This document shows, piece by piece, positions 43,975 through 56,967 of a stretch of DNA of 64,000 nt; within the stretch, counting starts at the first letter, position 1; each line of letters opens with the position of its first letter. A program made the translations under genes and the position numbers. The notes under the pieces were generated by a model. It did no database searches. It saw only the letters and a list, made by a program, of their open reading frames with translations, and had not been told where the DNA came from. Source of the stretch: Bradyrhizobium ottawaense. GTDB taxonomy: Bacteria; Pseudomonadota; Alphaproteobacteria; Rhizobiales; Xanthobacteraceae. The stretch is taken from positions 7,141,001 to 7,205,000 of the forward strand of contig NZ_LT629693.1 in assembly GCF_900099825.1 (NCBI RefSeq). The letters are read 5' to 3'.

Positions 43975-44059
43975 GCGCTCGTGGCGGAATTGGTAGACGC
44001 GCTGCCTTGAGGTGGCAGTGAGTAAAATCGTGGGGGTTCGAGTCCCTCCGAGCGCACCA
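43975..44059 (+). tRNA. tRNA-Leu(GAG)
   Basis: An 85-nt gene: acceptor GCGCTCG/CGAGCGC, discriminator A and encoded CCA (44057-44059). The D arm starts TGGCGGAATTGG, the anticodon arm CTGCC-TTGAGGT-GGCAG has anticodon GAG, and there is a long variable arm and T arm GGGGG-TTCGAGT-CCCTC. It is complete. Its 3' end (44046-44061) is repeated at 49205-49220 and 56377-56392, so it is the integration target of the tandem cassettes. Confidence 0.95.
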
Positions 44060-44061
44060 CA
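44046..44061. repeat. att repeat 1 (tRNA-Leu 3' end)
   Basis: ctccgagcgcaccaca is the tRNA 3' end plus two bases. It matches exactly at 56377-56392 and, with one substitution in the CCA-proximal part, at 49205-49220. It marks the left boundary of cassette A. Confidence 0.75.
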
Positions 44062-44401
44062 GGCAATAAGACATTGATACGAAAGATATTTTCGCGGTTT
44101 CTCCGCATTGATACTCACAGCGAGCGCTAGTTTTTGTTCCGCGTAATCTTCCCAGTTTGATCTCGCGCGTCTTGGTGCAGTGCTCGCTCTTGCGGTCGTC
44201 GCATCTTTTTTCTTGAACCAACGCCGCGCAAAGGAAAACCACCATTTGCTCACGAGTGGGCACTGGCGTAGCCCCGCGCAGAAGTCGGCCGGTTCGTACT
44301 CTCATCCGTGGGCGCTACGCGGTATCCCGGACTGCGTGTCCATCAAAAAAATGCGGGCAGGGTGCGGTCCGCAGATTTCCTGTCAACGTCCTTGAGCAGG
44401 C
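44060..44401. other. Left end of cassette A (repeat L, copy 1), no gene
   Basis: Positions 44060-44292 are about 80% identical by eye to 49221-49452, with shared blocks ctcacagcgagcgct, ttttgttccgcg, ttgatctcgcgc and gtcgtcgcatctt. Frames that cross it (for example 43870-44253 on the minus strand) are artefacts of translating the tRNA complement. The function of the block is unknown: it could be the element end, or a dispersed repeat that follows tRNAs. Confidence 0.65.
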
Positions 44402-44827
44402 CTACCGCCTCATGCCGATGATCTGCCAGGCGCTGGCGCCGCTCGCCTTCGCTGAGGCGTTTCGCTCGCCGCGACGTGAGGGCCGCGTCGACCGTGACCC
44501 AGACTTCGCACGCAGGTTTTCGGGATCAGCGCTCGCGCCGACAACGTCGCGTGCCATTTCCAGGCAGGTTAGCAGCTCGACATAGCTTGCGAAGCCGCCG
44601 ATCTGCGTCGTCGCCATGCAGGACCGCTTGTCGGCACCGACAAACTGCACCCATTCCGTCTTGAGCTGTCCCAGTGCCGCCGTTTCGTCTTGCGAACACC
44701 ACTCGACATTAGCGGCCGACCCGCCCTCATAGCGGCACTCTCTCACAATGTCGTACGTCGGTACCGTGTCGGAGACGTGGATTGGCGAAAGCGTTGCCAG
44801 GATTGCGATTGGTAGGTGAAGCAACAT
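44402..44827 (-). CDS. Small secreted hypothetical protein next to the MFS pump
   Basis: A 141-residue protein with a short signal peptide (MLLHLPIAILATLSPIHV). The Cys-containing helical domain runs from CRYEGGSAANVEWC, through LGQLKTEWVQFVGADKRSC, to SYVELLTCLEMAR; a basic tail follows. The same Cys/Trp/Tyr pattern occurs in small periplasmic proteins of rhizobia. The start at 44827 has aagggag 9 bases upstream; the frame is open far upstream without a signal peptide. It is the last gene of the emrA-emrB run, 53 bp after the emrB stop, and may be co-transcribed. The function is unknown. Confidence 0.65.
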   Translation of the reverse strand: MLLHLPIAILATLSPIHVSDTVPTYDIVRECRYEGGSAANVEWCSQDETAALGQLKTEWVQFVGADKRSCMATTQIGGFASYVELLTCLEMARDVVGASADPENLRAKSGSRSTRPSRRGERNASAKASGASAWQIIGMRR

Positions 44828-44880
44828 GTCAAACTCCCTTGGTTGGAGGTTAGGCAGAGAATGAAGCGATGCGTTCGATC

Positions 44881-46482
44881 TCAATGGCCCATGTGGGCAG
44901 GACCGCCGAGCTTGACCTTGCGCAGGCTTAGGGCGAGCGGCACGGCTGAAAGCGAGATCAACATCAGGACCCAGAACGCATCCATGTAAGCAAGGAATGA
45001 CGCCTGCGCCTGCACCTGCGCGCCAATCCATTGAATGGCCTGGTCATGCGCCTGCATCAGCGAGCTCCCATGGGCCGTGAAGTAGTTCGTGATCTGTTGC
45101 AGTGTGTCCTGGTACGTTGTGCTTGACGGGATCACCTGCTCGACCAACCGGCTCTGGTGAAACTGCGCGCGATGCGTCAACACGTTGGAGACGATGGAGA
45201 CGCCGATCGAACTTCCGGTGTTGCGGGCTGCGTTGATTAAGGCAGAGGCCTGGTCGGTCTTGGACGGCTCAATGCCGTCGTAGGATGCGGCCATGATCGG
45301 CACAAAGATCAGCGGCAGTCCAACGCCGAGCAGGATGCGCGAGCGGGCCATGAACCAGAAGTCGAGATCGGCGTACACGTTGGTCATGCCGTACATGGAA
45401 AGCGCGATGAGCACCGCGCCCGCGACGATGAGATATTTGGGCTGCACCTTGGCCGCCACACGGCCCACCACGAACATCATCGCCATGGTGACCACGCCGC
45501 CCGGCGAGAGCAGGAGACCGGCCAAGGTGGCGGTATAGCCGAAATCCTGTTGCACCAGTTGCGGCAGGAATTGTGTGGTCGCGAGCAGGATTGCGCCGGT
45601 CGTCAGCATCACCAGGAAGCAGGCGCCGAACTGGCGCGTCGCCACCATGCGCAGATCGATGATCGGATTGCCGCGGGTCAATCCCCACGGAATCATCAGC
45701 ACGAACGCCAGACCCGAGATGACCGCGAACGTGACGATGAAAGGTGAACCAAACCAATCGTCCTCCAGACCGCGGTCCAGTACGACCTCCAGCGCGCCGA
45801 GGAACGTCGCAATCAGGATGAAGCCGAGGACGTCGAATCCGTTGCCTTGCTGCGAGTGGCTTTCCGCATGCGCGGTTCGGGGCTCACGCAGGACCAGCGA
45901 GATCAGCGCCATTGCGATCACGCCGACCGGCACGTTGATCAGAAAGCACCACTGCCAGGAGACATTGTCGGACAACCAGCCGCCAAGCGTCGGGCCCACT
46001 ACCGGCGCTACGACAACGGCGACGCCGAACAGCGCAAAGGCCTGGCCGCGCTTTGCCGGTGGGAACAAATCCGCCAGGATCGACTGGGCGACCGGTACCA
46101 TGCCGCCGCCACCAACGCCCTGCATAATACGGAACAGCAACAGCGCGTTCAGATTCGGGGCAAAGCCGCTCAGCAGCGAGCTTAAGGTGAACAATCCAAG
46201 ACAGATCAGGAAGAAGGTCTTGCGGCCAAGCATTCGCGCCAGATAGCTGCTGGCCGTCAGGATGATGGCATTGGCGACCAGATAGGTGGTGACCACCCAG
46301 GAGGCTTCGTCCTCGCTCACCCCCATGCCGCCCGCAATGTAGGGCAACGCCACGTTGGCGATCGTGGTGTCGAGCACCTCCATAAAGCTCGCGAGCGCGA
46401 CCAGCATGGCGATCAGCCAGGGATTGACGCCGGTGCCGCCTGCCGCGGCGGGAGCATCGGTTTCGATGACGGCAGTGCTCAC
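44881..46482 (-). CDS. emrB: DHA2-family MFS multidrug efflux permease (EmrB type)
   Basis: A 533-residue inner-membrane proton antiporter with 14 predicted helices. It has MEVLDTTIANVALPYIAGGM at helix 1, the loop YLARMLGRKTFFL and ADLFPPAKRGQAFALFGV in the DHA2 pattern. It expels hydrophobic drugs together with the EmrA adaptor. It starts with GTG, which overlaps the emrA stop by 3 bases (gtga), so the two are translationally coupled. Transcription should be controlled by the divergent TetR gene. Confidence 0.93.
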   Translation of the reverse strand: MSTAVIETDAPAAAGGTGVNPWLIAMLVALASFMEVLDTTIANVALPYIAGGMGVSEDEASWVVTTYLVANAIILTASSYLARMLGRKTFFLICLGLFTLSSLLSGFAPNLNALLLFRIMQGVGGGGMVPVAQSILADLFPPAKRGQAFALFGVAVVVAPVVGPTLGGWLSDNVSWQWCFLINVPVGVIAMALISLVLREPRTAHAESHSQQGNGFDVLGFILIATFLGALEVVLDRGLEDDWFGSPFIVTFAVISGLAFVLMIPWGLTRGNPIIDLRMVATRQFGACFLVMLTTGAILLATTQFLPQLVQQDFGYTATLAGLLLSPGGVVTMAMMFVVGRVAAKVQPKYLIVAGAVLIALSMYGMTNVYADLDFWFMARSRILLGVGLPLIFVPIMAASYDGIEPSKTDQASALINAARNTGSSIGVSIVSNVLTHRAQFHQSRLVEQVIPSSTTYQDTLQQITNYFTAHGSSLMQAHDQAIQWIGAQVQAQASFLAYMDAFWVLMLISLSAVPLALSLRKVKLGGPAHMGH

Positions 46483-47762
46483 AGGTCCCTCCTCAACTTC
46501 TCAATCAGCGACGAGGTGGATTCGACGCGCACCGTCGGGACGACCGACAGGCCTGGGCCCAGCGCGACATCGACTGGCGGATTGTCCATGATGATCTTCA
46601 CGGGCACGCGCTGGACGATCTTGACGTAGTTGCCAGTGGCATTCTGAGCCGGGAGCAGCGAGAACGCGGTGCCGGACCCAGGCTGCACGCTCTCAACATG
46701 ACCGTGGATTTTGCGGTCCGGATAGGCGTCGATCGCGAGCGTTGCCGGATCGCCGGGCCGCATGTGGTCGAGTTGAATCTCCTTGAAGTTTGCCGTGACC
46801 CAGATCTGATCCGGCACAAACATCGTCAGGCTCGTGCCTGGTTGGGCGAATTGACCGACCGCGGCGGTCAGATTAACGACGCGTCCCGGCTGCGCCGCCG
46901 TCACCGTCGTGTAGGACAGATTGAGTTCAGCCTGGTCACGCTGCGCTTCGGCTTGCCGCAGACTTGCAACAGCGCTGTTGCGCTGAGCCTTGAGCGCCTC
47001 GACCTGCCGCTGCGCCAGCTTCAGGGTCGCCTGCGCACTCGCGAGCGCGGCCTGCTGCTGGTGGAGCTGCGAGGTATATTGCTGTTCGTTCTGAACGGTG
47101 CCGTAGCCGGTTTGCCCGAGGTGCTCGTACCGCGCTGCCTGCTGCTCGGCAAACACCAGTGCGGCCTGCGCCTGATCCACCTGTGCCTGGTTGGCGCTGA
47201 TCTGTGCCTGCTGCACATCGAGCTGCGCGTCGATGTTCTCAATGCTGGCGTGCGCGGCCGCGACTTGCGCCTCCGCTTGATCGAGTGCCGTGCGATAGTC
47301 ACGGTCATCGATACGGGCGATCACGTCGCCAGCCTTGACATGTTGGTTGTCGGTGACGGGGACGGCGGTCAGGTAGCCGGACACTTTGGGGGCGAGCGAG
47401 GATTGCCGCGCGGCGATGAATGCATCATCGGTGGACTGAAAGTGTCTGGCGTAGTCCAGGTAAAGATAGCCGCCGCCCAACGCAGAGGCGAGGAGCATCG
47501 CACCGATGGCGGAGACAATAGGGCGGCGACGCAGGAAGCCGGCTCTGTGCCCTTTGCCGGTGGCCTGCGTCTGAGCTGGTTCCGCCTGAACGGGTGAGGC
47601 TGGCGCTTTGGCAACCGGGCTTTCGTGCGGGGAGGGAGCCCGCGCCGTGACGACGAGTTTTTCGGACGCAGCGCTGGGCTCGTGGGAGGCCGTGACAGAT
47701 TGGGGGATTTCGACGCCCTCGAGCACCCGTCCGTCCCGTTCCAAAAAATTGTCTTCGAACAT
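46479..47762 (-). CDS. emrA: HlyD-family adaptor subunit of the MFS pump (EmrA type)
   Basis: A 427-residue membrane fusion protein: acidic cytosolic N-terminus, a membrane helix (IVSAIGAMLLASALGGGYLYL), the lipoyl-type motif TDDAFIAARQSSLAPKVSGY, long Gln/Ala-rich coiled-coil hairpins, and a beta-barrel domain (RPGDPATLAIDAYPDRKIHG). It links EmrB to an outer-membrane channel. The start at 47762 has caggag 10 bases upstream; upstream frame to 47843 would cross operator 1. The promoter lies in the 207 bp to the TetR gene. Confidence 0.93.
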   Translation of the reverse strand: MFEDNFLERDGRVLEGVEIPQSVTASHEPSAASEKLVVTARAPSPHESPVAKAPASPVQAEPAQTQATGKGHRAGFLRRRPIVSAIGAMLLASALGGGYLYLDYARHFQSTDDAFIAARQSSLAPKVSGYLTAVPVTDNQHVKAGDVIARIDDRDYRTALDQAEAQVAAAHASIENIDAQLDVQQAQISANQAQVDQAQAALVFAEQQAARYEHLGQTGYGTVQNEQQYTSQLHQQQAALASAQATLKLAQRQVEALKAQRNSAVASLRQAEAQRDQAELNLSYTTVTAAQPGRVVNLTAAVGQFAQPGTSLTMFVPDQIWVTANFKEIQLDHMRPGDPATLAIDAYPDRKIHGHVESVQPGSGTAFSLLPAQNATGNYVKIVQRVPVKIIMDNPPVDVALGPGLSVVPTVRVESTSSLIEKLRRDL

Positions 47763-47812
47763 GATTGCCGCTCCTGCTGTCAGGCGAGGTCCGCGAAAGG
47801 CTATCGCCAAAA

Positions 47813-47833
47813 GAAACGAAACCGTTCCGTTTC
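47813..47833. promoter_or_regulatory. TetR operator, site 1
   Basis: Ten-base arms GAAACGAAAC and GTTCCGTTTC around one centre base, with one mismatch. It is in the emrA/tetR divergent region and shares the gaaacg core with site 2. Confidence 0.75.
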
Positions 47834-47872
47834 TATAAGCCAAATAGTTCGCCCAGATCGGCTCGTCAATAG

Positions 47873-47891
47873 GAACGAAACGGTTTCGTTC
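47873..47891. promoter_or_regulatory. TetR operator, site 2
   Basis: A perfect inverted repeat of nine-base arms GAACGAAAC and GTTTCGTTC around one centre base. It is 59 bp from site 1 centre to centre, between emrA (minus) and the TetR gene (plus), so it may control both directions. Confidence 0.8.
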
Positions 47892-47969
47892 TATTTACAA
47901 GCAGACGTGATCTGCATAAATTGAGCTGCGCCGCCGACCATCAGCGGTGCGGAACCCGGATCAATCGCG

Positions 47970-48674
47970 ATGAAAACCAGCAGTTTGAAGAAGACACCGG
48001 CGGCGAAGGCAAAGCGCGCCGCGGTGCGCTTTGGTCGCCCGCCGAAGGAACTTGCCGGGGAGGTTGACACACGCATCCTCGATGCGGCGCGCAAGGTCTT
48101 TCTGGAGCGCGGCTTTGAAGGCGCGAGTATCGACGAGATCGCCGAGGTAGCGCGCTCGGGAAAGCCGACGATCTACGCCCGCTTCCGCGACAAGCGGGCG
48201 CTGTTCACCGAAGTGGTGACACGGGACATCCTTTCTCGCATTACAGAGTTCAAGAGTGAGGCGCCGACCGGCGCAACAATCGAGGAGCGCCTCACGAGTG
48301 CCGCGATCACCCTGGTGCACTGGGGTTTCGACAGCGACAGGATCGCACTGATGCGGCTGGCGGTTGCGGAAGCGCGCCGATTCCCCGATCTGGCAAGCAC
48401 CGTCAGCCGGACCGCGCGTGATCTCAGCACTGAACTCGGGGTCCGGCTGCTGGGCGAACTGGCGCAATCGGACGAGCTTTCGTCGCTGCCGGCCTTCGCC
48501 CCGGAGCGCCTCGCGACGACGGCCCGGCTCTTGCTCGATCTCGTTGCCGTGCCCATGCTGCTTCGGGCGCTGTTCGAGGTAAACCTCAAGGTGCTGGATG
48601 CAGAGATCGACGCGCACGTGGCGCGCAGCGTTGCGTTCTTCCTTGCAGCGTGCAAAAACGGCGGCGTGAGTTGA
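47970..48674 (+). CDS. TetR/AcrR-family repressor of the EmrAB-type pump
   Basis: A 234-residue regulator. A basic N-terminal tail precedes the helix-turn-helix RILDAARKVFLERGFEGASI to SGKPTIYARFRDKRALFTEV; the C-terminal ligand domain is of the AefR/AcrR type. It is divergent from emrA with two palindromes between, so it most likely represses the pump and itself until a drug binds. The ligand is unknown. The start is the only good ATG ahead of the domain; the basic tail is long but may be real. Confidence 0.93.
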   Translation: MKTSSLKKTPAAKAKRAAVRFGRPPKELAGEVDTRILDAARKVFLERGFEGASIDEIAEVARSGKPTIYARFRDKRALFTEVVTRDILSRITEFKSEAPTGATIEERLTSAAITLVHWGFDSDRIALMRLAVAEARRFPDLASTVSRTARDLSTELGVRLLGELAQSDELSSLPAFAPERLATTARLLLDLVAVPMLLRALFEVNLKVLDAEIDAHVARSVAFFLAACKNGGVS

Positions 48675-49121
48675 ATCTCGAAAAGTCATGCGAGCTCTAG
48701 CTCGGCACCTTTAAGCGGTACGCGACCGCTCCAGCGACTCGCCCCACGCCTCGATCTGCCAGCGGTGACGCGCGCTCATAGTTGGACTTGTCGCTGTAAG
48801 CCGTTGATGTCCAATGCTCGGATTCTGGCGCAGTTGGAAAAAATCGCTCGAGATATCAATCTGAGACCATGTCTCTTAATCAGCGGCCCTGTCCGAATCC
48901 GTTCACGCAATAACCTCGGGAATCTCCCGTTCAACACTTCAGATAAGTGCTACACCGTCCGCTCCTCGCTCAAAGCAAGGCGCTCCCCACAACGCCCGCG
49001 CGCGGGGAGGCAGCTCTTCGAGTGATCTCAAGACAACGACCGGCCGCGACACTAATCGCGCCGTGGGAACGGGGCGCTCCGTGGAAAAGGCGACTGGACG
49101 AGCCGCTCCTTGGGCGCTGCT

Positions 49122-49204
49122 TTTGAAAGGTACTTTGGGTTTGAAATGCACCTTATGGTTTGATAGATCTTTCTAACCTATTGATACCGCAACAAATGCG
49201 ACCG
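49122..49204. repeat. Repeat R, copy 1 (right end of cassette A)
   Basis: It shares gaaatgcacc, attgata-cgc and gcgaccgc blocks with 56293-56376, in the same order and spacing, immediately before an att repeat. Confidence 0.7.
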
Positions 49205-49220
49205 CCCTCCGAGCGGACCA
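49205..49220. repeat. att repeat 2
   Basis: ccctccgagcggacca matches the tRNA-Leu 3' end (44044-44059) at 15 of 16 bases. It lies between repeat R copy 1 and repeat L copy 2, the junction of the two cassettes. Confidence 0.75.
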
Positions 49221-49452
49221 AGGGCGTAAATCATTGATGCGAAAAGTGTTTTCGCGATTTATACTCCAACATTGTTACTCACAGCGAGCGCTGGTTTTTG
49301 TTCCGCGCTATCTTCCCTGTTTGATCTCGCGCATCTTGGTGCAGTGCTTGCTCTTTCGGTCGTCGCATCTTTATTTGAACCAACGCCCCGCGAAACCACC
49401 ATCTCCACGCGAGAGTGTAGTGGCGTAGCCCAGCGTAGAAATCGGCGGGCCT
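49221..49452. repeat. Repeat L, copy 2 (left end of cassette B)
   Basis: Matches 44060-44292 along its length with scattered substitutions and small gaps, including ttttgttccgcg, ttgatctcgcgc, cttggtgcagtgct and gtcgtcgcatctt. Confidence 0.8.
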
Positions 49453-49472
49453 CCTGCTTCATGATGGTGTCC

Positions 49473-52400
49473 CTAAAGCTTCTTGTCGAACCGGAAGAGC
49501 AGCAAATATCCGGCCGGCACAAAGAACAGTGTCAACAGCGAAGCGATGGCAAGCCCGGACATCATGAGCACGGCCATGGGCTGCCATAATGCGCCGCCGG
49601 CGATCGCCATCGGCGCCAGTCCGAGAACGGTCGTTGCCGATGTCAGCAGGATCGGTCGCAATCGCTTTTCAGAGGCGACAACAATCGCGTCGCGCAGGTC
49701 AAGCTCCCTTCGCTCGATGTCGATCTGATCGATCAGCACGATGGCGTTGTTGATGATGATTCCCGACAGGCTGATGATGCCGAGCGTTCCAAAGAACGAA
49801 AGCGGCTGTCCGGTCAGCAGCAGGCCGAATGGGATGCCGATCACGATCAGCGGAATGGTGATGAATGTCAGCAGTGTGCGCCGAAAGGAGTTGAATTGCA
49901 GAATGATCGCCAGCACCATGATGCCAAGGGCGACAGGAAATCCTGCGGCAAGCTTCTGGTTGGTCTCCGCACTCTTCTCGATCTCGCCCCCGATCGTGTA
50001 GTGATAGCCGCCGGCCAGGTCGAGCGCCTGCAGGCCGGGGCGAATGGACTCCAGGAGCTGCCCGGCCGTCAGCGAAGCGCTCCGGGCGGTGACGGTGATC
50101 GTTCGTTCCTGGTTTTTCCGCCTGATGCGAGCAAAATCGAACCGCGGCCTTAGCCTGGCCACCTGTGCGAGTGAGATCAATCCGCCGTTCTTCGCGAAGG
50201 TCGCGCTGGTGAGCGCTTCCAGATTCTCGAAGGTGTATGCTCCCGCGCGGAGCACGATGGGAATGAGATTGTCGCCTTCGCGGTAGATCGACACGGCGGC
50301 GCCGCTGAAATAGGTATTTAGGAGCTGCGTAATCTCTTCGGATGTTATTCCAAGCTGCCGCGCGCGATCCTGATCGATCTCGACAACCACCTTGATGAGC
50401 TTGTTGCCCCAATCGTCTTCGTTGTCGTGAACGTCCGGCGCCGCCCGAAACAGCGCTTGTACGCTTTCGCTGAGCGCCAGCAGCCGGTCGGCGTCGGGGC
50501 CGGAGATTTCTACGTCGACGATGCCGGATTCCACCGCGCCCATCGCCAGGCGCTTGATCTTGAACCTCGCTTCCGGGTGATTCGCGTAAAGATATTTCCA
50601 GGCGCGATCCGCAGCCCGCACTGCACCGGTGTAGTCGTTGGTGTTGATCAGGAAGAAGGCCGACGCGGGATCGGACGCCACGGGAGTCAGCGTCAGATAG
50701 AATCTCGGGCCGCCATCCCCGATGTAGCCGATGTTGCTCGCGATCTCGGGGTTTTGGGTCTTGTCGCCGAGCCATCCGGAGATTTCGAGCGCTTTGGTCT
50801 CGGTGCGGGAGACGTCGGTTCCATCAGGCATGTTCATGTAAATGAGGAACTGGTTGCGCTCGCTCAGCGGGAACATCTGTTTTGGCACGCGGCCGAACAG
50901 CGAGAGCGACAGCACGACCAGGACGATGCAGGCGGCCAGCACGATCGGCGAAAAGCGGAGCGCGGCCCGCAAGGCGATCGCGTAGAACCCTTGCAACCGT
51001 GAAGGAGAGGCAGCCTGGTTTTCCGCAACCTGGCCGCGGTCGAACAACCAGACCGTCAACGCCGGAAGGATGTAGACGGCCGAGATCCACGAGCCGGTCA
51101 GCGTCAAGGCGACGACCGCGGCGAGCGAGTAGCCATATTCGCCCGACGATCCCGGAAGCAGAAACAGCGGCAGAAAAGCCGCAACCGTCGTGACCGACGA
51201 TATCAGCAGGGGAAGCGCGTATTGCTCGCCGGAGGCGAGACCCGCAGCCTGGGCCGGCACGCCGCGGCCCATCCGGCTGACAATATCCTCGACGATCACC
51301 ACGCCGTTGTCGACCAGGAGACCCAGGGCTATGATGATGGCAGCAATCGATACCTGCTCGAGCGCAATGCCGAGCCAACGCATGCCGATGAGCGAAAACA
51401 TCACGGCGAAGGGAACAATCATCGCCGCGACCAATCCCGCGCGCAGGCCCAGAAACAGCACGACCAGAGCGGCCACGACGACAAAGGTCTGCGCCACGTT
51501 TGACAGCGCAGAGTTGACGGAGGCACGGACCTGTTCCGCCTGGTAAGTCGCGAAATGGATCGCATATCCGATCGGGAGCTGCTGCTCATAGGCGCGTGCC
51601 GTCGCGCGCAGCTTTTGCCCGAGCTGAGTTACATCCTGATCGGGCTGCATGATCACGCTGAGCACGACTGCGGATCGCCTGTCGAAGTAAACCGGCTTGA
51701 TTTTGGGGGAGACGTAACCGCGGTGAACGGTGACGAGATCGGCAAGTCTTACCAGGTTGTCCGTCGCACCCACGCGGGTCAGCATGGTTTCGACGGCACG
51801 CACATCCGGAAAGTCACCTGATGTTTCCAGCAGCAGGCGCGTGCCCTCGACATTGATGGATCCCGACGGCAGCACGACGTTCTGCGCCTGAAGGTCCTTG
51901 ACCAGGGCGTTGAGCTGGACGCCGACGGCCGCGAGTTTTCGCGTGTCCAGTTCCAGCCAAACCCGTTCGTCCTGAACCCCGAAGAGATCAATCTTGGAGA
52001 TTCCCGTCAGCTGGTAGAGTTTCTTGCGGAAATCGTCCGCGACATCCTTCAGTTCGCGCGGTGAAAAACCTTCGCCGGTTATCGCGATCGTTGCAATGGC
52101 GACATCGCCGAAGTCGCTGTTGACGAACGGGCCGACGACGCCGTCGGGCAGTTCGATCTTGACGTCGCCAACCTTGTCGCGCAGCCGTTGCCAGGTCGCG
52201 TTGACATTGCCGACCTCATCGTTGAGGTCGACGTAGATCGTCAGCGATCCTTCGCTCGCAAGCGTCCTGATATCCTTGACTTCGGCAAGCTCGCGGATTT
52301 TCCGTTCGATCGGAACTGCAATCAGGTTTTCGACGCGCTCGGGCGCCATTCCCGGGAACAGCGCCGATACCACCGCCGTGCGAATGACGATGATCGGGTC

Positions 52401-52511
52401 CTCGCGCTTGGGAAAATTCGGATAGAGGACCACGCCGGCAACAAGCAGCCCAATCATGGCCGCAATGGTGAATCGCGATCGCACGAGACCAAATCGCGTG
52501 AGGAGATTCAC
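49473..52511 (-). CDS. RND efflux permease (AcrB-like, HAE type)
   Basis: A 1012-residue inner-membrane proton antiporter. The fourth-helix block IAAIIIALGLLVDNGVVIVE is that of the drug/solvent type rather than the heavy-metal type, and SALFPGMAPERVENLIAVPI matches the porter N-terminus. It takes its adaptor from the gene 5 bp upstream (52517-53623). The substrate is unknown. The end at 49473 is only 20 bp from the left-end repeat, so it is the last cargo gene on that side. No outer-membrane channel gene is present. Confidence 0.93.
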   Translation of the reverse strand: MNLLTRFGLVRSRFTIAAMIGLLVAGVVLYPNFPKREDPIIVIRTAVVSALFPGMAPERVENLIAVPIERKIRELAEVKDIRTLASEGSLTIYVDLNDEVGNVNATWQRLRDKVGDVKIELPDGVVGPFVNSDFGDVAIATIAITGEGFSPRELKDVADDFRKKLYQLTGISKIDLFGVQDERVWLELDTRKLAAVGVQLNALVKDLQAQNVVLPSGSINVEGTRLLLETSGDFPDVRAVETMLTRVGATDNLVRLADLVTVHRGYVSPKIKPVYFDRRSAVVLSVIMQPDQDVTQLGQKLRATARAYEQQLPIGYAIHFATYQAEQVRASVNSALSNVAQTFVVVAALVVLFLGLRAGLVAAMIVPFAVMFSLIGMRWLGIALEQVSIAAIIIALGLLVDNGVVIVEDIVSRMGRGVPAQAAGLASGEQYALPLLISSVTTVAAFLPLFLLPGSSGEYGYSLAAVVALTLTGSWISAVYILPALTVWLFDRGQVAENQAASPSRLQGFYAIALRAALRFSPIVLAACIVLVVLSLSLFGRVPKQMFPLSERNQFLIYMNMPDGTDVSRTETKALEISGWLGDKTQNPEIASNIGYIGDGGPRFYLTLTPVASDPASAFFLINTNDYTGAVRAADRAWKYLYANHPEARFKIKRLAMGAVESGIVDVEISGPDADRLLALSESVQALFRAAPDVHDNEDDWGNKLIKVVVEIDQDRARQLGITSEEITQLLNTYFSGAAVSIYREGDNLIPIVLRAGAYTFENLEALTSATFAKNGGLISLAQVARLRPRFDFARIRRKNQERTITVTARSASLTAGQLLESIRPGLQALDLAGGYHYTIGGEIEKSAETNQKLAAGFPVALGIMVLAIILQFNSFRRTLLTFITIPLIVIGIPFGLLLTGQPLSFFGTLGIISLSGIIINNAIVLIDQIDIERRELDLRDAIVVASEKRLRPILLTSATTVLGLAPMAIAGGALWQPMAVLMMSGLAIASLLTLFFVPAGYLLLFRFDKKL

Positions 52512-52516
52512 GATAC

Positions 52517-53623
52517 CTACTCCACGACGGGTAGAAGCTTGACTTTTTGTCCGTCAAGCAAATAGGAGACGCCGGCCGCGGCAACGATGTCGCCCGCGGC
52601 AAGGCCTTCCGTGACGATCAGGCGATTGTCACGGACTCCTCCAACTGTGACCTTGCGCTTGTTCACCGTCGAGCTGGCGCCATTATAGACAAAGACGGTC
52701 GCAACGCCCTCCAGTTCCCTGCCGGCCTCGGGCGCAATGACACTGAGCGGAAGCAGAAAACCGCTGGCTACACCGATCAGTGGCTCCTGGATCGCGACTT
52801 CGACCGACATCCCGGCATTCAGCCCCGCAACCCTGTCTTCCAGCCGCACAACGACCGGGAACGCGGAGACCTGCTCTGCCTTGGACCCGAGCTCCTTGAT
52901 CTCTCCCTTGAGCGAGAGATCAGGCATGTCGGCGACCTTGACGGTGACCGGTTGCCCGACCCTCAGGGTTTGAAAGGTCGGGGAGGGAATGAGGAAAGAC
53001 ATCTCGAAACGGTCGTCACTGTACAAGGTGACAATCGGTTGCCCGGCTGAAACCTGTGCGAACGACTTGACCTCGACGCGGGCGATGGTGCCGGAGAACG
53101 GCGCGACGAGCTTGCTGCGGTCCATGTTGTGTTCTGCCAGTTCGAGCTGGCGCTTCGCCTGGTCTAATTGCGCTCTCGCAGTGAGCAAGGTCGCTTTCGA
53201 CTGATCGAATATTGCTTGGGTTGTGACCCCTTTTCCGAGCAGGTCTTCCTTGCGCCGGAAATCGCTTTCTGCGTTATCGAGCTGGGCCTGCGCCTGCTGC
53301 ACGCCGGCACTGGCCTGGTCGACCTGCGATTGCAGCGAGCGCGAGTCGATTTCCGCCAGAAGGTCTCCCAACTGCACCTTTTGGCCGACAGCAAGCGATA
53401 CTGCTTTCAATTGTCCGGCAATTTCGAAGGATAAGCTGCTGACGTCTGCCGGCTGCAGGACTGTGGGAAAGCGGCGAACCCGGCTCTCGGCTTTTGCGTT
53501 TACCTTGAAGGCGCGAAGCCCCCGCACGGGTTGCTCGGTGACTTCCTGATCCTTTCTGCTGCAGGATTGCAAGCCGAACACGACTATCGCGCAGATCACA
53601 AACCGCAACGGTCGTCGACTCAT
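52517..53623 (-). CDS. RND adaptor lipoprotein (membrane fusion protein)
   Basis: A 368-residue adaptor with a lipobox (FVICAIVVFGLQSC, Cys anchor near residue 20), a coiled-coil hairpin (QVDQASAGVQQAQAQLDNAE and beyond) and barrel segments (VKVADMPDLSLKGEIKELGS). It bridges the RND permease downstream to an outer-membrane channel. The start at 53623 has GGAG 6 bases upstream; the in-frame ATG at 53635 and TTG at 53644 lack one. It overlaps nothing and is 5 bp from the permease gene, so they are one operon. Confidence 0.9.
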   Translation of the reverse strand: MSRRPLRFVICAIVVFGLQSCSRKDQEVTEQPVRGLRAFKVNAKAESRVRRFPTVLQPADVSSLSFEIAGQLKAVSLAVGQKVQLGDLLAEIDSRSLQSQVDQASAGVQQAQAQLDNAESDFRRKEDLLGKGVTTQAIFDQSKATLLTARAQLDQAKRQLELAEHNMDRSKLVAPFSGTIARVEVKSFAQVSAGQPIVTLYSDDRFEMSFLIPSPTFQTLRVGQPVTVKVADMPDLSLKGEIKELGSKAEQVSAFPVVVRLEDRVAGLNAGMSVEVAIQEPLIGVASGFLLPLSVIAPEAGRELEGVATVFVYNGASSTVNKRKVTVGGVRDNRLIVTEGLAAGDIVAAAGVSYLLDGQKVKLLPVVE

Positions 53624-53981
53624 TGTCGGCTCCATCTGAGGCAATTTGAGGCTGCGTCAGCGTGTTGCATTCTTCCCCAAACAATGCCGCCTGCCAAGAG
53701 CGACCGATCTCATGAATGCGATCTTTGCGCGATAGCGTCCGGCGGGAAGCTTCCCTTCCGGCGTTGTTCCCGCCATTCTCTGGTTGCATCGCAATGCGAA
53801 CACCGTGCACGCCACCAAACCCATGATGTCGCTCTTCCAGGTCATAAGATCGTTACCCGGCGAAGCACGGTAAGCGGGGCTTTCCACTTCCGCTTCAACG
53901 CAATCTAAACTTGAAAACATCCGACTTAAAGCGCAAACATGCTTGCGCTGCTTCTCGTGCCGCCCTCACTGGAGTGATCGT
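53624..53981. other. Divergent intergenic region, no gene
   Basis: 358 bp between the adaptor gene (leftward) and the COG4337-like gene (rightward). I see no gene or strong terminator. It should contain two promoters; none can be placed with confidence. Confidence 0.5.
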
Positions 53982-54467
53982 ATGACTATCACCGAGAGGC
54001 AAGTGAATGCGGCTCAACAGGCATGGTGCGATGGTTTAGTGAGGATCGGAACGGTCTATAAGGCGTCTGGAGATTTTCGGGCGGCTGCAACGGTCGTGAT
54101 CGATGAACTCTACGATTACCAGGACGGAGTGGTGTTTTTCAAACCCACGCAGGCTCACGGCCGTCAGACGTTTCGCAATACGGCGCGAGGAGCACTGTCA
54201 TACTTTGTCGGTGGCGATCCCGAATTTCCCGATGACAAGGGCTTTGCCTTAAAGCCCTGGGCGCGCGTCTGGTACGACAACAATGCCGCTGAAAATGGAA
54301 TTCAGATTCACGGAATAATTGCCATTACCATGGGCAACGTATATCTCGCCGATTATGAGGGGAACGAAATCATGGTCGACAAGACCTTCGTCTTTCGCCT
54401 CTGCAAGGATGGCAAGCTTCGGCTTTGCGCCCACAAATCGGCGCTCCCTTACGTTCCAGATGCCTGA
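53982..54467 (+). CDS. COG4337 / iota-carbonic-anhydrase-like protein
   Basis: A 161-residue soluble protein of NTF2/CaMKII-association-like fold. QQAWCDGLVRIGTVYKASGD, VVFFKPTQAHGRQTFRNTAR, GALSYFVGGDPEFPDDKGFA, GIIAITMGNVYL and the final HKSALPY (151-157) follow the pattern I know from COG4337 proteins, the group that includes iota-class carbonic anhydrases and is often mislabelled phosphoribosyl-AMP cyclohydrolase. The C-terminal motif, which I recall as HHSSLPY in those enzymes, is AHKSALPY here, so activity is doubtful. ATG at 53982 follows ggag. The SulP start overlaps its stop. A role in bicarbonate supply is inference. Confidence 0.7.
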   Translation: MTITERQVNAAQQAWCDGLVRIGTVYKASGDFRAAATVVIDELYDYQDGVVFFKPTQAHGRQTFRNTARGALSYFVGGDPEFPDDKGFALKPWARVWYDNNAAENGIQIHGIIAITMGNVYLADYEGNEIMVDKTFVFRLCKDGKLRLCAHKSALPYVPDA

Positions 54468-56202
54468 TTGTTTCCATACCGTTCACGAGGGTGAACTTGC
54501 CGGTTCTGTCCGGGGAGTTGGAAAAAGGGGGGGAATTTTGTCAGGGTTCGCGATCACGCGTGGCGACATTTTTGGCGGCATAACTGCCGGCATCGTAGCG
54601 TTGCCGCTTTGCCTCGCGTTCGGCGTTGCGTCGGGATTGGGGCCGGGCGCCGGATTGTACGGTGGAATTGTCCTGGGCATCGTTGCCGCACTGTTGGGAG
54701 GCACGCCAGTCCAGATCTCCGGTCCGACGGCACCCATGACGCTCATTGCGGCCAGCGTCGTTGCGGCAAACACATCATCCAGCGGAGAAGTGCAGCTCGC
54801 GCCGGTTGTTGGAATTTTTTGCCTCGCGGGTGCCTTGCAGGTGCTCTTCGGGATCGCAAGGCTTGGAAACTATATTCGGTTCCTGCCATATCCGGCGATC
54901 TCGGGCCTGATGACAGGCATCGGGATTATCATCATCATTCAGCAGATTTTCCCAATAGTCGGTCTGCCTTCGCCATCATCCAATCCGGTCGAAATCCTGA
55001 AGTCTTTCGGCGCCCTCGCGCAGGGCGCCCGCCTTGATGCGTTCCTGCTTGCGGCGGCGACCGTCGCGATATCATTTCTGCTCCCGCGCTTTCTTTCGGC
55101 CGTGCCTCCGTCTCTCGTCGCATTGATCCTGCTGACGGGCATAGCCGTAGCTTTCGGGCTTTCGGCGCCGACCATCGGCGACATTCCCAGGGGGCTGCCG
55201 GACTTTGTCCTGCCCGGGCTCAACATTGCCGACTTCAAGTTTTCCTTCATTGCTGCATTTCAACTGGCATTCTTGGGCGCGATCGACGCTTTAACGACAT
55301 CGCTCGTCACGGATAACATGACGAAGACGCATCACGACAGCAATCGAGAGCTGATCGGCCAGGGTACCGGCAATATAGGTGCGGCGCTGTTCGGCGGTAT
55401 CCCGGGCGCCGGCGCGTTCGTGCGAACCGCCATCAATGTTCGGGCCGGTGGACGGCATCGCTCCTCGGGAGTGATACATGGTCTCTTCCTGCTGGCGGTT
55501 CTTCTCGGTCTATCCAGCGTAGTGCGGTACATTCCTCATGCCGTCTTGTCAGGAATTCTGGTCAGCGCCGGGTTGAGCATCATCGACTATCGCAGCCTTG
55601 CTCATCTGTTTCGTGCGCCGCGCGGCGACACGTGGGTGATGCTGATCGTTGTTGTATTGACGATATTCACTGATCTGATCACCGCGGTGGGCACCGGCGC
55701 CGTGCTTGCTTCCCTGATTTTCATGACCAAGATTGCGCGCACGATGGAACAGAACACGACTCTGACGCTGGTCGAAGATGAGTTGTGGCAGGATGAACTC
55801 GAGCTTCCGGACGAACTAAAGCAGCGGCTTCTGATCAAGCATGTCAACGGGCCGCTGTTCTTTGGATTTGTTTATGCTTTCCGCCGAATTGCGGAGCGAG
55901 CGATGGATGGAAAAATGCTCGTGCTGCGGATGGAGCGCGTCACCTATATGGATCAATCCGGAATTTATGCACTGCAGGACGTATTGGTCGATCTGGAAGG
56001 CGCTGGACTAAAGGTATTTGTTATCGGACTTCCTCAAGACCAGATCGATCAGCTTGAGGCAATGCATATTGTTCCGACGGTTTTGTCTGAAGAGGACTTC
56101 TTCCAGAATTTCGATGAGTTCAAGCAACGGCTCCCCGAAATCGTTGAAGAGCTCAGCCGCACGAGCGGCGCGGGCCGGCCAATCAAGACGATCGAGAGTT
56201 AA
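54460..56202 (+). CDS. SulP-family anion transporter with STAS domain
   Basis: A 580-residue inner-membrane protein: about 10-14 helices from residue 30 (DIFGGITAGIVALPLCLAFG, then SGPTAPMTLIAASVVAANTS) and a C-terminal STAS domain with MERVTYMDQSGIYALQDVLV. SulP proteins move sulfate, bicarbonate or dicarboxylates. The start at 54460 overlaps the preceding stop by 8 bases; TTG at 54538, preceded by aaggggggg, is a serious alternative and would cut the charged leader. Pairing with a carbonic-anhydrase-like gene favours bicarbonate, but sulfate cannot be excluded. Confidence 0.85.
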   Translation: MPDCFHTVHEGELAGSVRGVGKRGGILSGFAITRGDIFGGITAGIVALPLCLAFGVASGLGPGAGLYGGIVLGIVAALLGGTPVQISGPTAPMTLIAASVVAANTSSSGEVQLAPVVGIFCLAGALQVLFGIARLGNYIRFLPYPAISGLMTGIGIIIIIQQIFPIVGLPSPSSNPVEILKSFGALAQGARLDAFLLAAATVAISFLLPRFLSAVPPSLVALILLTGIAVAFGLSAPTIGDIPRGLPDFVLPGLNIADFKFSFIAAFQLAFLGAIDALTTSLVTDNMTKTHHDSNRELIGQGTGNIGAALFGGIPGAGAFVRTAINVRAGGRHRSSGVIHGLFLLAVLLGLSSVVRYIPHAVLSGILVSAGLSIIDYRSLAHLFRAPRGDTWVMLIVVVLTIFTDLITAVGTGAVLASLIFMTKIARTMEQNTTLTLVEDELWQDELELPDELKQRLLIKHVNGPLFFGFVYAFRRIAERAMDGKMLVLRMERVTYMDQSGIYALQDVLVDLEGAGLKVFVIGLPQDQIDQLEAMHIVPTVLSEEDFFQNFDEFKQRLPEIVEELSRTSGAGRPIKTIES

Positions 56203-56292
56203 CCAACGTCTTTTCAATGTTCCGCAGGGTCGGCCGCGGAGCTACTGAAACGGCGCCGCGCCCCCGACTTGGTGCAGCCTGGGTATTCCGCT

Positions 56293-56376
56293 CGAAGGGC
56301 ACTTATAGGAGGGAAATGCACCGTACGGCTTGACAAGTCTTGGCAACCCATTGATATCGCGGCAAACGCGACCGCT
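56293..56376. repeat. Repeat R, copy 2 (right end of cassette B)
   Basis: Same blocks as 49122-49204: gaaatgcacc at 56313, attgatatcgcggcaaa near 56350 and gcgaccgc just before att 3. Confidence 0.7.
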
Positions 56377-56392
56377 CTCCGAGCGCACCACA
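56377..56392. repeat. att repeat 3
   Basis: ctccgagcgcaccaca, identical to 44046-44061 (tRNA-Leu 3' end). It ends the island; the DNA after it shows no similarity to the left ends at 44060 or 49221. Confidence 0.75.
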
Positions 56393-56592: not shown

Positions 56593-56967
56593 ATGCTGTT
56601 TCTGAGCTACGCCTACCGATTCCTGTCCAATTTCGTGTTCCTGGCGCTGGTTTATTTCGCTCTGAATTTTCTGGAAAAGTACCAGCACCGCGTGGTCGTC
56701 GCGGTTCTGGTGCTGGTCTATGCCGGCATGCATGCGGCATCGGCGCTGCGTTCGTTCCATTTCTTTCAACGCATCGAGCGGCTGGAGATCGAGGCGCGCC
56801 GGCTGGTGGCTGCATTGGGCGAGGGGCCCAATTCGAGCTCTGCGCGCAAGCAGATCGTCACGGACGTCAGCGCGCTCCGCCATGCCGGCGAGATGAAGTC
56901 GTATATCGACCTGCTGTTTCTCGCCCTCGTCATCCTGCTCTGCGTCACCAAGATCCTGACGAACTGA
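56593..56967 (+). CDS. Membrane protein of unknown function
   Basis: A 124-residue protein with about three hydrophobic helices (FLSNFVFLALVYFALNFL, VVVAVLVLVYAGMHAASAL, IDLLFLALVILLCVTKIL) and a charged coiled segment (RIERLEIEARRLVAALGEGP) between the second and third. I do not recognise the family. The start has ggag 9 bases upstream. It is the first gene outside the island on the right and is convergent with a deacetylase gene 11 bp away. Confidence 0.75.
   Translation: MLFLSYAYRFLSNFVFLALVYFALNFLEKYQHRVVVAVLVLVYAGMHAASALRSFHFFQRIERLEIEARRLVAALGEGPNSSSARKQIVTDVSALRHAGEMKSYIDLLFLALVILLCVTKILTN

Follow-up and report, generated by a model that had tools for sequence, protein, structure and literature searches.

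Tandem integrase-less cassettes at a tRNA-Leu(GAG) gene of Bradyrhizobium and the probable partner integrase of their sister elements

Two tandem cassettes without an integrase gene lie behind the tRNA-Leu(GAG) gene in a 64,000-nt stretch of Bradyrhizobium ottawaense DNA (the window; its host genome, of 8.34 Mb, is G000 in our comparisons). Integrase-less islands are usually taken for remnants, and several described systems come near to this locus. Cis-mobilizable elements (CIMEs) keep attL and attR, are without integration and transfer genes, and stack with integrative and conjugative elements (ICEs) and integrative and mobilizable elements (IMEs); the accessible part of PMC5704250 defines them as decayed elements. 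Of the islands at ssrA of Dehalococcoides, 16 have an integration module at their left edge and 15 have none, the latter being presented as possible cis-mobilizable elements in the portion of PMC3146451 available to us. Additive flexible genomic islands are known from Alteromonas (PMC5217437, PMC4119200) and Methylophilaceae (PMC10872708), again from excerpts of these papers. In Bradyrhizobium itself, according to the sections at hand, islands bounded by partial tRNA copies occur in B. japonicum USDA6 and USDA110 (PMC3927601) and in B. cosmicum (PMC7656271); they are stacked at trnK, trnQ and trnI, some islands of 3-30 kb are without an integrase, and the 15 islands of PMC3927601 have no apparent nucleotide similarity among them.

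Judging from sequence comparison, the two cassettes of the window are probably non-autonomous, CIME-like integrative elements that are recombined in trans by the integrase of sister elements using the same tRNA gene. The array is built from the following parts:

43975..44059, + strand: complete tRNA-Leu(GAG) gene, the target site (attL); ARAGORN and Rfam RF00005
44044..44059, + strand: core copy 1, the tRNA 3' end, 16 nt, CCCTCCGAGCGCACCA; sequence match
44060..44292, + strand: left end L1 of cassette A; 82% identical to copy 2, L1 profile match (this end is itself in the training set)
49122..49204, + strand: right end R of cassette A; pairwise identity, R profile match
49205..49220, + strand: core copy 2, one mismatch, the A/B junction; sequence match
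49221..49452, + strand: left end L1 of cassette B; pairwise identity, L1 profile match
56293..56374, + strand: right end R of cassette B; pairwise identity, R profile match
56375..56390, + strand: core copy 3, one mismatch (attR); sequence match
56593..56967, + strand: 124-aa chromosomal gene, by which the right flank is recognised in relatives; flank comparison

Cassette A thus extends from 44060 to 49220 and cassette B from 49221 to 56390, and either end of each is marked by a core, so that attL and attR are kept. The first-pass annotation of this DNA had seen all three core copies, placing the first and the third 2 nt off. With up to one mismatch the core occurs three times in forward and not once in reverse orientation in the whole 8.34-Mb genome (reversed-pattern control: 0); the three copies of the array are therefore all that the genome holds, and their recurrence here exceeds chance. 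The related ends claimed for the two cassettes are borne out by alignment: the two L blocks are 82% identical across 225 bp (44072-44292 and 49232-49449), and the two R blocks 77-79% identical across 62-78 bp. Among the candidates scored in this genome, a 241-bp L block and the R profile each hit the two array sites only. The tRNA-Leu gene is the one tRNA gene that ARAGORN finds in the whole window, and a scan of the array for structured RNAs at E 0.1 gave nothing besides it. All 24 Phage_integrase (PF00589) matches of the genome were listed and none falls inside the array, in agreement with the earlier call that it holds no recombinase.

The same ends recur throughout the genus. Profiles were built from the right block plus core (R) and from the core plus left block (L1), and 15 and 17 candidates per genome, respectively, were scored in 265 Bradyrhizobium genomes. 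R matches were obtained in at least 131 of these genomes, and L1 matches in at least 72 (at least 97 sites; the lowest-scoring one is an end that bears an integrase), so that cassettes are found independently of their cargo. A local scan of the fetched stretches gave 76 L1 ends and 83 R blocks of 40 bits or more. Thirty-one of the L1 ends directly follow a complete tRNA-Leu(GAG) and 41 directly follow an R block; four follow neither, one of these, in G176, lying 8 nt from an R match. The R blocks, in turn, are followed by an L1 end (39), by a tip resembling the left end of the integrase-bearing elements described below (L2; 21), or by something else, including chromosomal flank (23). An L1 end paired with an R block closes 27 cassettes of 1.06 to 54 kb (median 6.9 kb), the largest of which (29-54 kb) may hide an unrecognised end. 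Longer arrays are exemplified by G265, with three L1 cassettes and one further element. Since the ends recur at this tRNA-Leu(GAG) in many genomes, mostly around other cargo in those read, they define a cassette family, as had been surmised; the surmise allowed for this or other tRNA-Leu copies, and no other tRNA-Leu was seen to serve. The R and L1 blocks had no match in 72,556 plasmid records (from which records near the window's genome were possibly excluded), and a plasmid origin of the cassettes was rejected.

None of the 76 L1 ends is followed by an integrase before the next core; this holds in full for the 27 closed cassettes only, as many fetched stretches stop within 20 kb. In these 27, three hidden Markov models (HMMs) detected no tyrosine recombinase, the generic domain model recovering 12 of 12 true integrases; serine recombinases, for which there was no dedicated search, did not turn up in Pfam scans of part of the proteins. 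The cargo varies widely between the cassettes read, and the annotated ones mostly hold one operon-sized cargo. Thirty proteins from 13 cassettes elsewhere were scanned (the one in G072 has a weak L1 end, and one G265 protein was left out). They include a catalase with an aquaporin and an AraC regulator; a TonB receptor with MFS, binding-protein and ABC genes; an AMP-binding ligase with an acyltransferase; short-chain dehydrogenases with a sigma factor; a chloride channel; and the copper chaperone PpoB2. No recombinase, transposase, relaxase or conjugation family was met among the 30, three of which matched nothing. Cargo is sometimes common to several sites: cassette B is also present in G268, and several elements have RND genes.

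Among the relatives the site is found in different states of occupancy. In G089, an instance of the insert-free tRNA-Leu that the first-pass annotation had proposed to look for, the site is empty and the 124-aa flank gene starts 225 bp after the tRNA core; the distance from the last core is 224 bp in G268 and 218 bp in the window. G268 carries cassette B alone, directly after the tRNA, and in the window A stands between the tRNA and B. Between window and G268 the identity is 96.3% in cassette B, as against 90.6% and 89.3% in the flanks, and in 500-bp steps it drops sharply at the right end of B, from 95.2 to 82.2%; the left neighbour of B is nevertheless 94.8% identical and parts of the right flank reach 96.0%. 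The pattern would fit a transfer of B after the lineages split, with a stronger constraint on the cargo as an alternative. Other genomes hold mixed arrays. The order in G084 is tRNA, intact integrase element, two identical L1 cassettes of 6,875 bp, and a further L1 end; G180 has the same order with a closed integrase element of 6.8 kb. G263, G124 and G276 have the tRNA and integrase first and an R-L1 junction 63-91 kb further on, the DNA in between having been partly read. The array of G019 is apparently split by a large inversion, with tRNA and integrase at 5.99 Mb and the remaining cassettes plus the chromosomal flank, in opposite orientation, at 3.86-3.92 Mb.

Some features of these arrays are recorded here in their own right. 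The duplicate cassettes of G084 (L052-L055, C1:3779517-3793266) carry RND-type genes. In G019, G023 and G265 the element adjoining the right flank has ORF (open reading frame) families of 294 and 198 aa in common and is perhaps an ancestral insertion; in G023 and G265 this flank-side element starts with a CCTC, A-rich tip, which is absent from G019 and has a similar counterpart in G064. In G165 (C1:3413938-3426803; L060, L061) R-core-L2-like tips are followed by what appears, read by eye, to be the 3' end of another tRNA, so that L2-like elements or their remnants may also occupy a second tRNA.

The candidate partner is a protein of about 500 aa encoded just behind tRNA-Leu(GAG), found in two genomes by means of an integrase-domain HMM built from the genus; a generic integrase HMM made from unsorted ORFs had missed it. 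It matches the PHROGs integrases at 2.9e-18, with no match in an NCBIfam scan. An Arg, a Lys, a His-x-x-Arg, a Trp and a Tyr are conserved in the 12 intact copies and in a 29-row alignment, and we take these, from what is known of tyrosine recombinases, to be the catalytic residues. Relatives at E 1e-30 or better occur in 51 of the 265 genomes, 38 of them at 55% identity or more; the other 13 have a best match of 34-40% identity and were not counted further. The same search gave no match in the window's own genome, so the cassettes of the window can probably not move at present, short of an L2 element entering. Among 296 genomes sampled from 47 genera of the taxonomic family, the integrase was met at E 1e-60 in this genus only; one database protein, 82% identical to it, is labelled Rhodopseudomonas palustris and stems from a metagenome assembly. 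As a separate observation, the window begins with a tyrosine recombinase fragment truncated by the window start (3-680; PF00589 E 6.7e-15, PHROG integrase), 43 kb from the tRNA-Leu, in a genome where the partner-integrase family has no match.

The position of the integrase gene is constant. Twelve of 17 full-length matches were read, and all 12 genes end 31-35 bp after the core of a complete tRNA-Leu(GAG). In a named collection of GTDB genomes, with carriers such as B. centrolobii, B. stylosanthis, B. tropiciagri and B. murdochi, the core directly precedes the integrase gene at 20 of 20 loci, fragments included (at least five of these loci also belong to the set of 265 genomes). Eighteen of the 20 lie behind the tRNA and two (L221 and L228) behind an R block, the latter two being frameshifted. 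The elements so marked have the same core and R type as the cassettes and a separate left end, L2; after six integrase genes the next known R block scores 67-90 bits, none of these blocks being in the training set. The first-pass annotation had read the array as the layout expected where an integrase is supplied in trans; a matching integrase does exist in these sister elements, and it may mobilise the cassettes. In nine of 11 genomes the DNA from the integrase up to the next known R contains no PF02534 (VirD4-type) protein, with one match within a 168-kb interval of G262, which may contain several elements, and no verdict for the eleventh, G019; from this absence the partner elements are probably not plain conjugative ones. 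Conjugation in trans, transduction and transformation are all candidates for passage between cells. At eight of the 20 named loci, weak antisense matches to the R profile (10-13 bits) fall at one place upstream of the integrase gene; they are maybe a binding or regulatory site, in loci that are homologous and not independent.

L1 and L2 are distinct classes that are nonetheless related, if weakly. In a tree built from the 90 nt that follow the core, all 27 integrase-associated ends (five named loci already counted among the genomes read being excluded) part from all 76 L1 ends with a support of 0.88, and the first 32 nt, which precede the end of the integrase gene in L2, give the same split with 0.85; here the L1 ends were picked by the L1 profile and the L2 ends by the presence of an integrase, so that the tree holds no ends of any other kind. 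Eleven of the 76 L1 arms score 5 bits or more on the L2 profile against none of 760 shuffled arms, and of 750 random windows one does so; with its 75.6 bits it is probably an L2 end that the sampling happened to hit. Motifs are shared too. TTGA follows the core in the left arms, at 12-15 nt in L1 (60 of 76) and at 17 nt in L2 (11 of 12), and precedes it in the R blocks, at 22-25 nt (76 of 83); GTTAC[TC] is found in 47 of 76 L1 arms and 12 of 12 L2 arms (84 of 1520 shuffled L1 arms). Motifs at fixed distances on both sides of a core have the look of tyrosine integrase binding sites. Even cargo is held in common: at least 12 ORF families, among them acetate kinase, phosphate acetyltransferase, PPK2 and a Crp regulator, stand in one order in a 42-kb L1 element of G085 and a 33-kb integrase element of G084. 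Finally, 22 genomes contain both L1 (72 of 265) and the integrase (38 of 265), with a Fisher p of 1.6e-5, uncorrected for phylogeny.

We propose that each cassette would be a unit in the order L1, host operon, R and core. A tyrosine recombinase supplied in trans, most likely the integrase of the L2 elements acting on L1 ends, would join the core of a circular form to the identical 3' end of tRNA-Leu(GAG), whereby the tRNA would stay whole and the far end would be marked by a new core copy. Repeated insertion at the tRNA would stack the cassettes with the newest next to it: B first in the window, and then A. Circles would form, cassettes would pass between cells, and operons would enter between L1 and R.

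Several observations weigh against this proposal. The Pfam Phage_integrase match of the partner (E 8.6e-6, 26.1 bits) is below the curated cut-off of 27.1, its predicted structure is poor (mean predicted local distance difference test, pLDDT, of 57.4, with most of the catalytic part below 60) and was not used, and several of the 18 tRNA-side genes are broken or fragments (L229-L233). The L1 and L2 arms are only weakly related, so the integrase may not use L1, and at an identity of 55% or more an integrase match is missing from 50 of the 72 L1 genomes. Most of the 21 R blocks with an L2-like tip are without an integrase, some of them away from any tRNA-Leu seen (in G010, G025, G165, G229 and others the stretches read contain none). 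The duplicate cassette of G084 could be a product of assembly or of homologous recombination. Excision, circles and transfer of the cassettes are themselves what we infer from sequence.

The foremost alternative, though an unlikely one, is that these are ordinary CIMEs, each cassette being the remnant of an island that deleted its own integrase, with tandem accretion besides. CIMEs are defined as such remnants, and tandems of them are common, in the available text of PMC5704250. Decayed integrase genes do stand behind in-array cores (G137, G152, G226, G143, L221 and L228, with one near such a core in G028), and the L2-like tips without integrase would suit this account. However, the integrase remnants stand behind ends of the L2 type, and all 76 L1 ends lack an integrase match before the next core. 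The clean split of 27 against 76 arms, in classes that were chosen by profile and by integrase, argues for one ancestral loss of the integrase rather than many. A somewhat less probable alternative is that L1 cassettes use some other recombinase of the same core specificity, be it a lost partner of their own or the integrase of a phage or an unrelated island. This would account for the difference between L1 and L2 and for the many L1 genomes without the L2 integrase, and the window's genome does have other Phage_integrase genes (24 matches); on the other hand the R type, the core and the spacing of the motifs are common to L1 and L2 elements, and the integrases beside this tRNA are of one family, albeit in a search seeded with that family.

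It is more doubtful still that no site-specific step takes place now and that homologous recombination through the common tRNA, L1, R and flanks spreads the cassettes. The excess identity of B over its flanks between window and G268 is what a recombined patch would give, but these are identities of whole sequences, to which a stronger constraint on the cargo could also lead; moreover, the junctions bear core copies and the site occurs empty, with B and with A+B, which asks for site-specific insertion, at least originally. As to the idea, raised by the first-pass annotation itself, that the L block is a dispersed repeat following tRNAs, we give it next to no chance and rejected it: among the candidates scored, the window's genome has two copies, both in the array, and in the relatives 72 of 76 L1 ends directly follow tRNA-Leu(GAG) or an R block, with no other tRNA adjoining any of the 76 read. 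Insertion of the cassettes in trans, probably by the L2 integrase, is the explanation that we retain.

The cargo genes of the window's two cassettes are as follows, with the stretch of A discussed below:

44881..46482, - strand: EmrB-like MFS efflux permease (cargo A); PF07690 E 2e-59, TIGR00711
46479..47843, - strand: EmrA-like membrane fusion protein (cargo A); PF16576/PF13533, TIGR00998 below cut-off
47970..48674, + strand: TetR regulator (cargo A); PF00440
44481..48674, no strand assigned: putative captured-operon stretch common to a chromosomal locus of G089, 87% identical, ending at the tetR stop codon; sequence comparison
49473..52511, - strand: RND efflux permease (cargo B); PF00873 E 6e-149
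52517..53644, - strand: RND periplasmic adaptor (cargo B); PF13437, TIGR01730
53943..54467, + strand: metal-independent carbonic anhydrase-like protein (cargo B); NF047901 E 9e-47, below cut-off, no Pfam match
54319..56202, + strand: SulP/BicA-like anion transporter (cargo B); PF00916 E 9e-81, NF050096 E 7e-122, below cut-off

The earlier calls of the cargo were right and could be refined in that the COG4337 protein is metal-independent carbonic anhydrase-like and the SulP protein BicA-like, both below the curated cut-offs. The true start of the latter is probably near or after 54467. The two genes at 53943-56202 may together serve in bicarbonate uptake, which would place such a pair on a mobile cassette. 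No relaxase or conjugation family was found among the main cargo proteins of the window, the smaller ORFs lying outside that scan.

Cassette A suggests where such cargo comes from. Its interior matches 171 of the 265 genomes, the window's own included, and the best match outside the window's genome (87%) is in G089, far from its tRNA-Leu; this was the one case read of A-like cargo without ends, and it stands at an unrelated place, whereas the first-pass annotation would have been refuted by the cargo of the array standing at the tRNA site itself without repeats or end blocks. Because the match runs up to the tetR stop codon and neither the L1 nor the R profile has a match in G089, cassette A looks like a host operon placed between L1 and R. 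The genes that flank the operon in G089 are kept in the window's genome at 5.33 Mb, with the operon absent there and a gap of about 1.1 kb (L213) in its stead, where a LysR-type gene was seen by eye only. Given this 1.1 kb, a move of cassette A from its native locus was not distinguishable from loss or horizontal gain, and we set it aside.

All the parts, namely the ends, a probable partner, an empty site and single and double inserts, are available within one genus, so that a persistent class of passenger elements with ends of its own becomes directly testable, and the same material makes the entry of host operons into that class accessible to test. Going further, we put forward only tentatively, and as somewhat less likely than its negation, a two-tier system largely confined to Bradyrhizobium, in which autonomous elements with the L2 integrase coexist with long-lived, separately evolving, non-autonomous L1 cassettes that capture host operons between fixed non-coding ends. 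If true, this would resemble non-autonomous transposons living on autonomous ones, would play the part of integron cassettes on the scale of operons at a tRNA gene, and would account for much of the turnover of operons at tRNA-Leu(GAG).

How, then, does the locus compare with the systems described? Like the CIMEs of PMC5704250, as far as the available text characterises them, the cassettes of the window keep their att ends, show no integration or transfer genes, and belong to a family stacked with related integrase elements; unlike them, the integrase-less class has a conserved left end of its own, apart from that of the integrase class, and those annotated mostly carry a single operon-sized cargo, while nine of 11 partner intervals are without a VirD4-type protein. 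As for the decay that defines CIMEs, the L1 arm is related to L2, yet there is no trace of an integrase in 76 L1 ends. The closest array described is that at ssrA of Dehalococcoides, in which the islands likewise follow an RNA gene in tandem and are delimited by repeated copies of its 3' end, the adjoining bases being conserved as well; there a serine recombinase module and ssrA take the place of our tyrosine recombinase and tRNA-Leu(GAG), and the accessible portion of PMC3146451 does not describe a separate class of left end for the islands without module. The additive islands likewise have cassettes in variable number at a tRNA whose 3' end is directly repeated, with operons, efflux pumps among them, as cargo, but end blocks independent of cargo or a matching integrase are not described in the excerpts available (PMC5217437, PMC4119200, PMC10872708). 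The Bradyrhizobium islands are of the same genus, tRNA-bounded, stacked and in part integrase-less (PMC3927601, PMC7656271, in the sections at hand); in the corresponding part of PMC3927601 tRNA-Leu(GAG) is not named and the islands are mutually dissimilar. Tycheposons, known to us through PMC10872708 in part, are tRNA-targeted cargo elements with a tyrosine recombinase as well, in other lineages and at other tRNAs, and are set apart here by description only. As regards integron cassettes, for which attC sites and an IntI beside attI would be expected, the junctions read here are tRNA 3' cores flanked by conserved arms, and the partner gene lies at tRNA-Leu. No title or abstract opening was found to describe the present end family, subscription papers and preprints being outside the scope of that search. 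Known kinds of element thus come close; what is unusual here is a separate, conserved, integrase-less lineage of ends for which a probable partner can be named.

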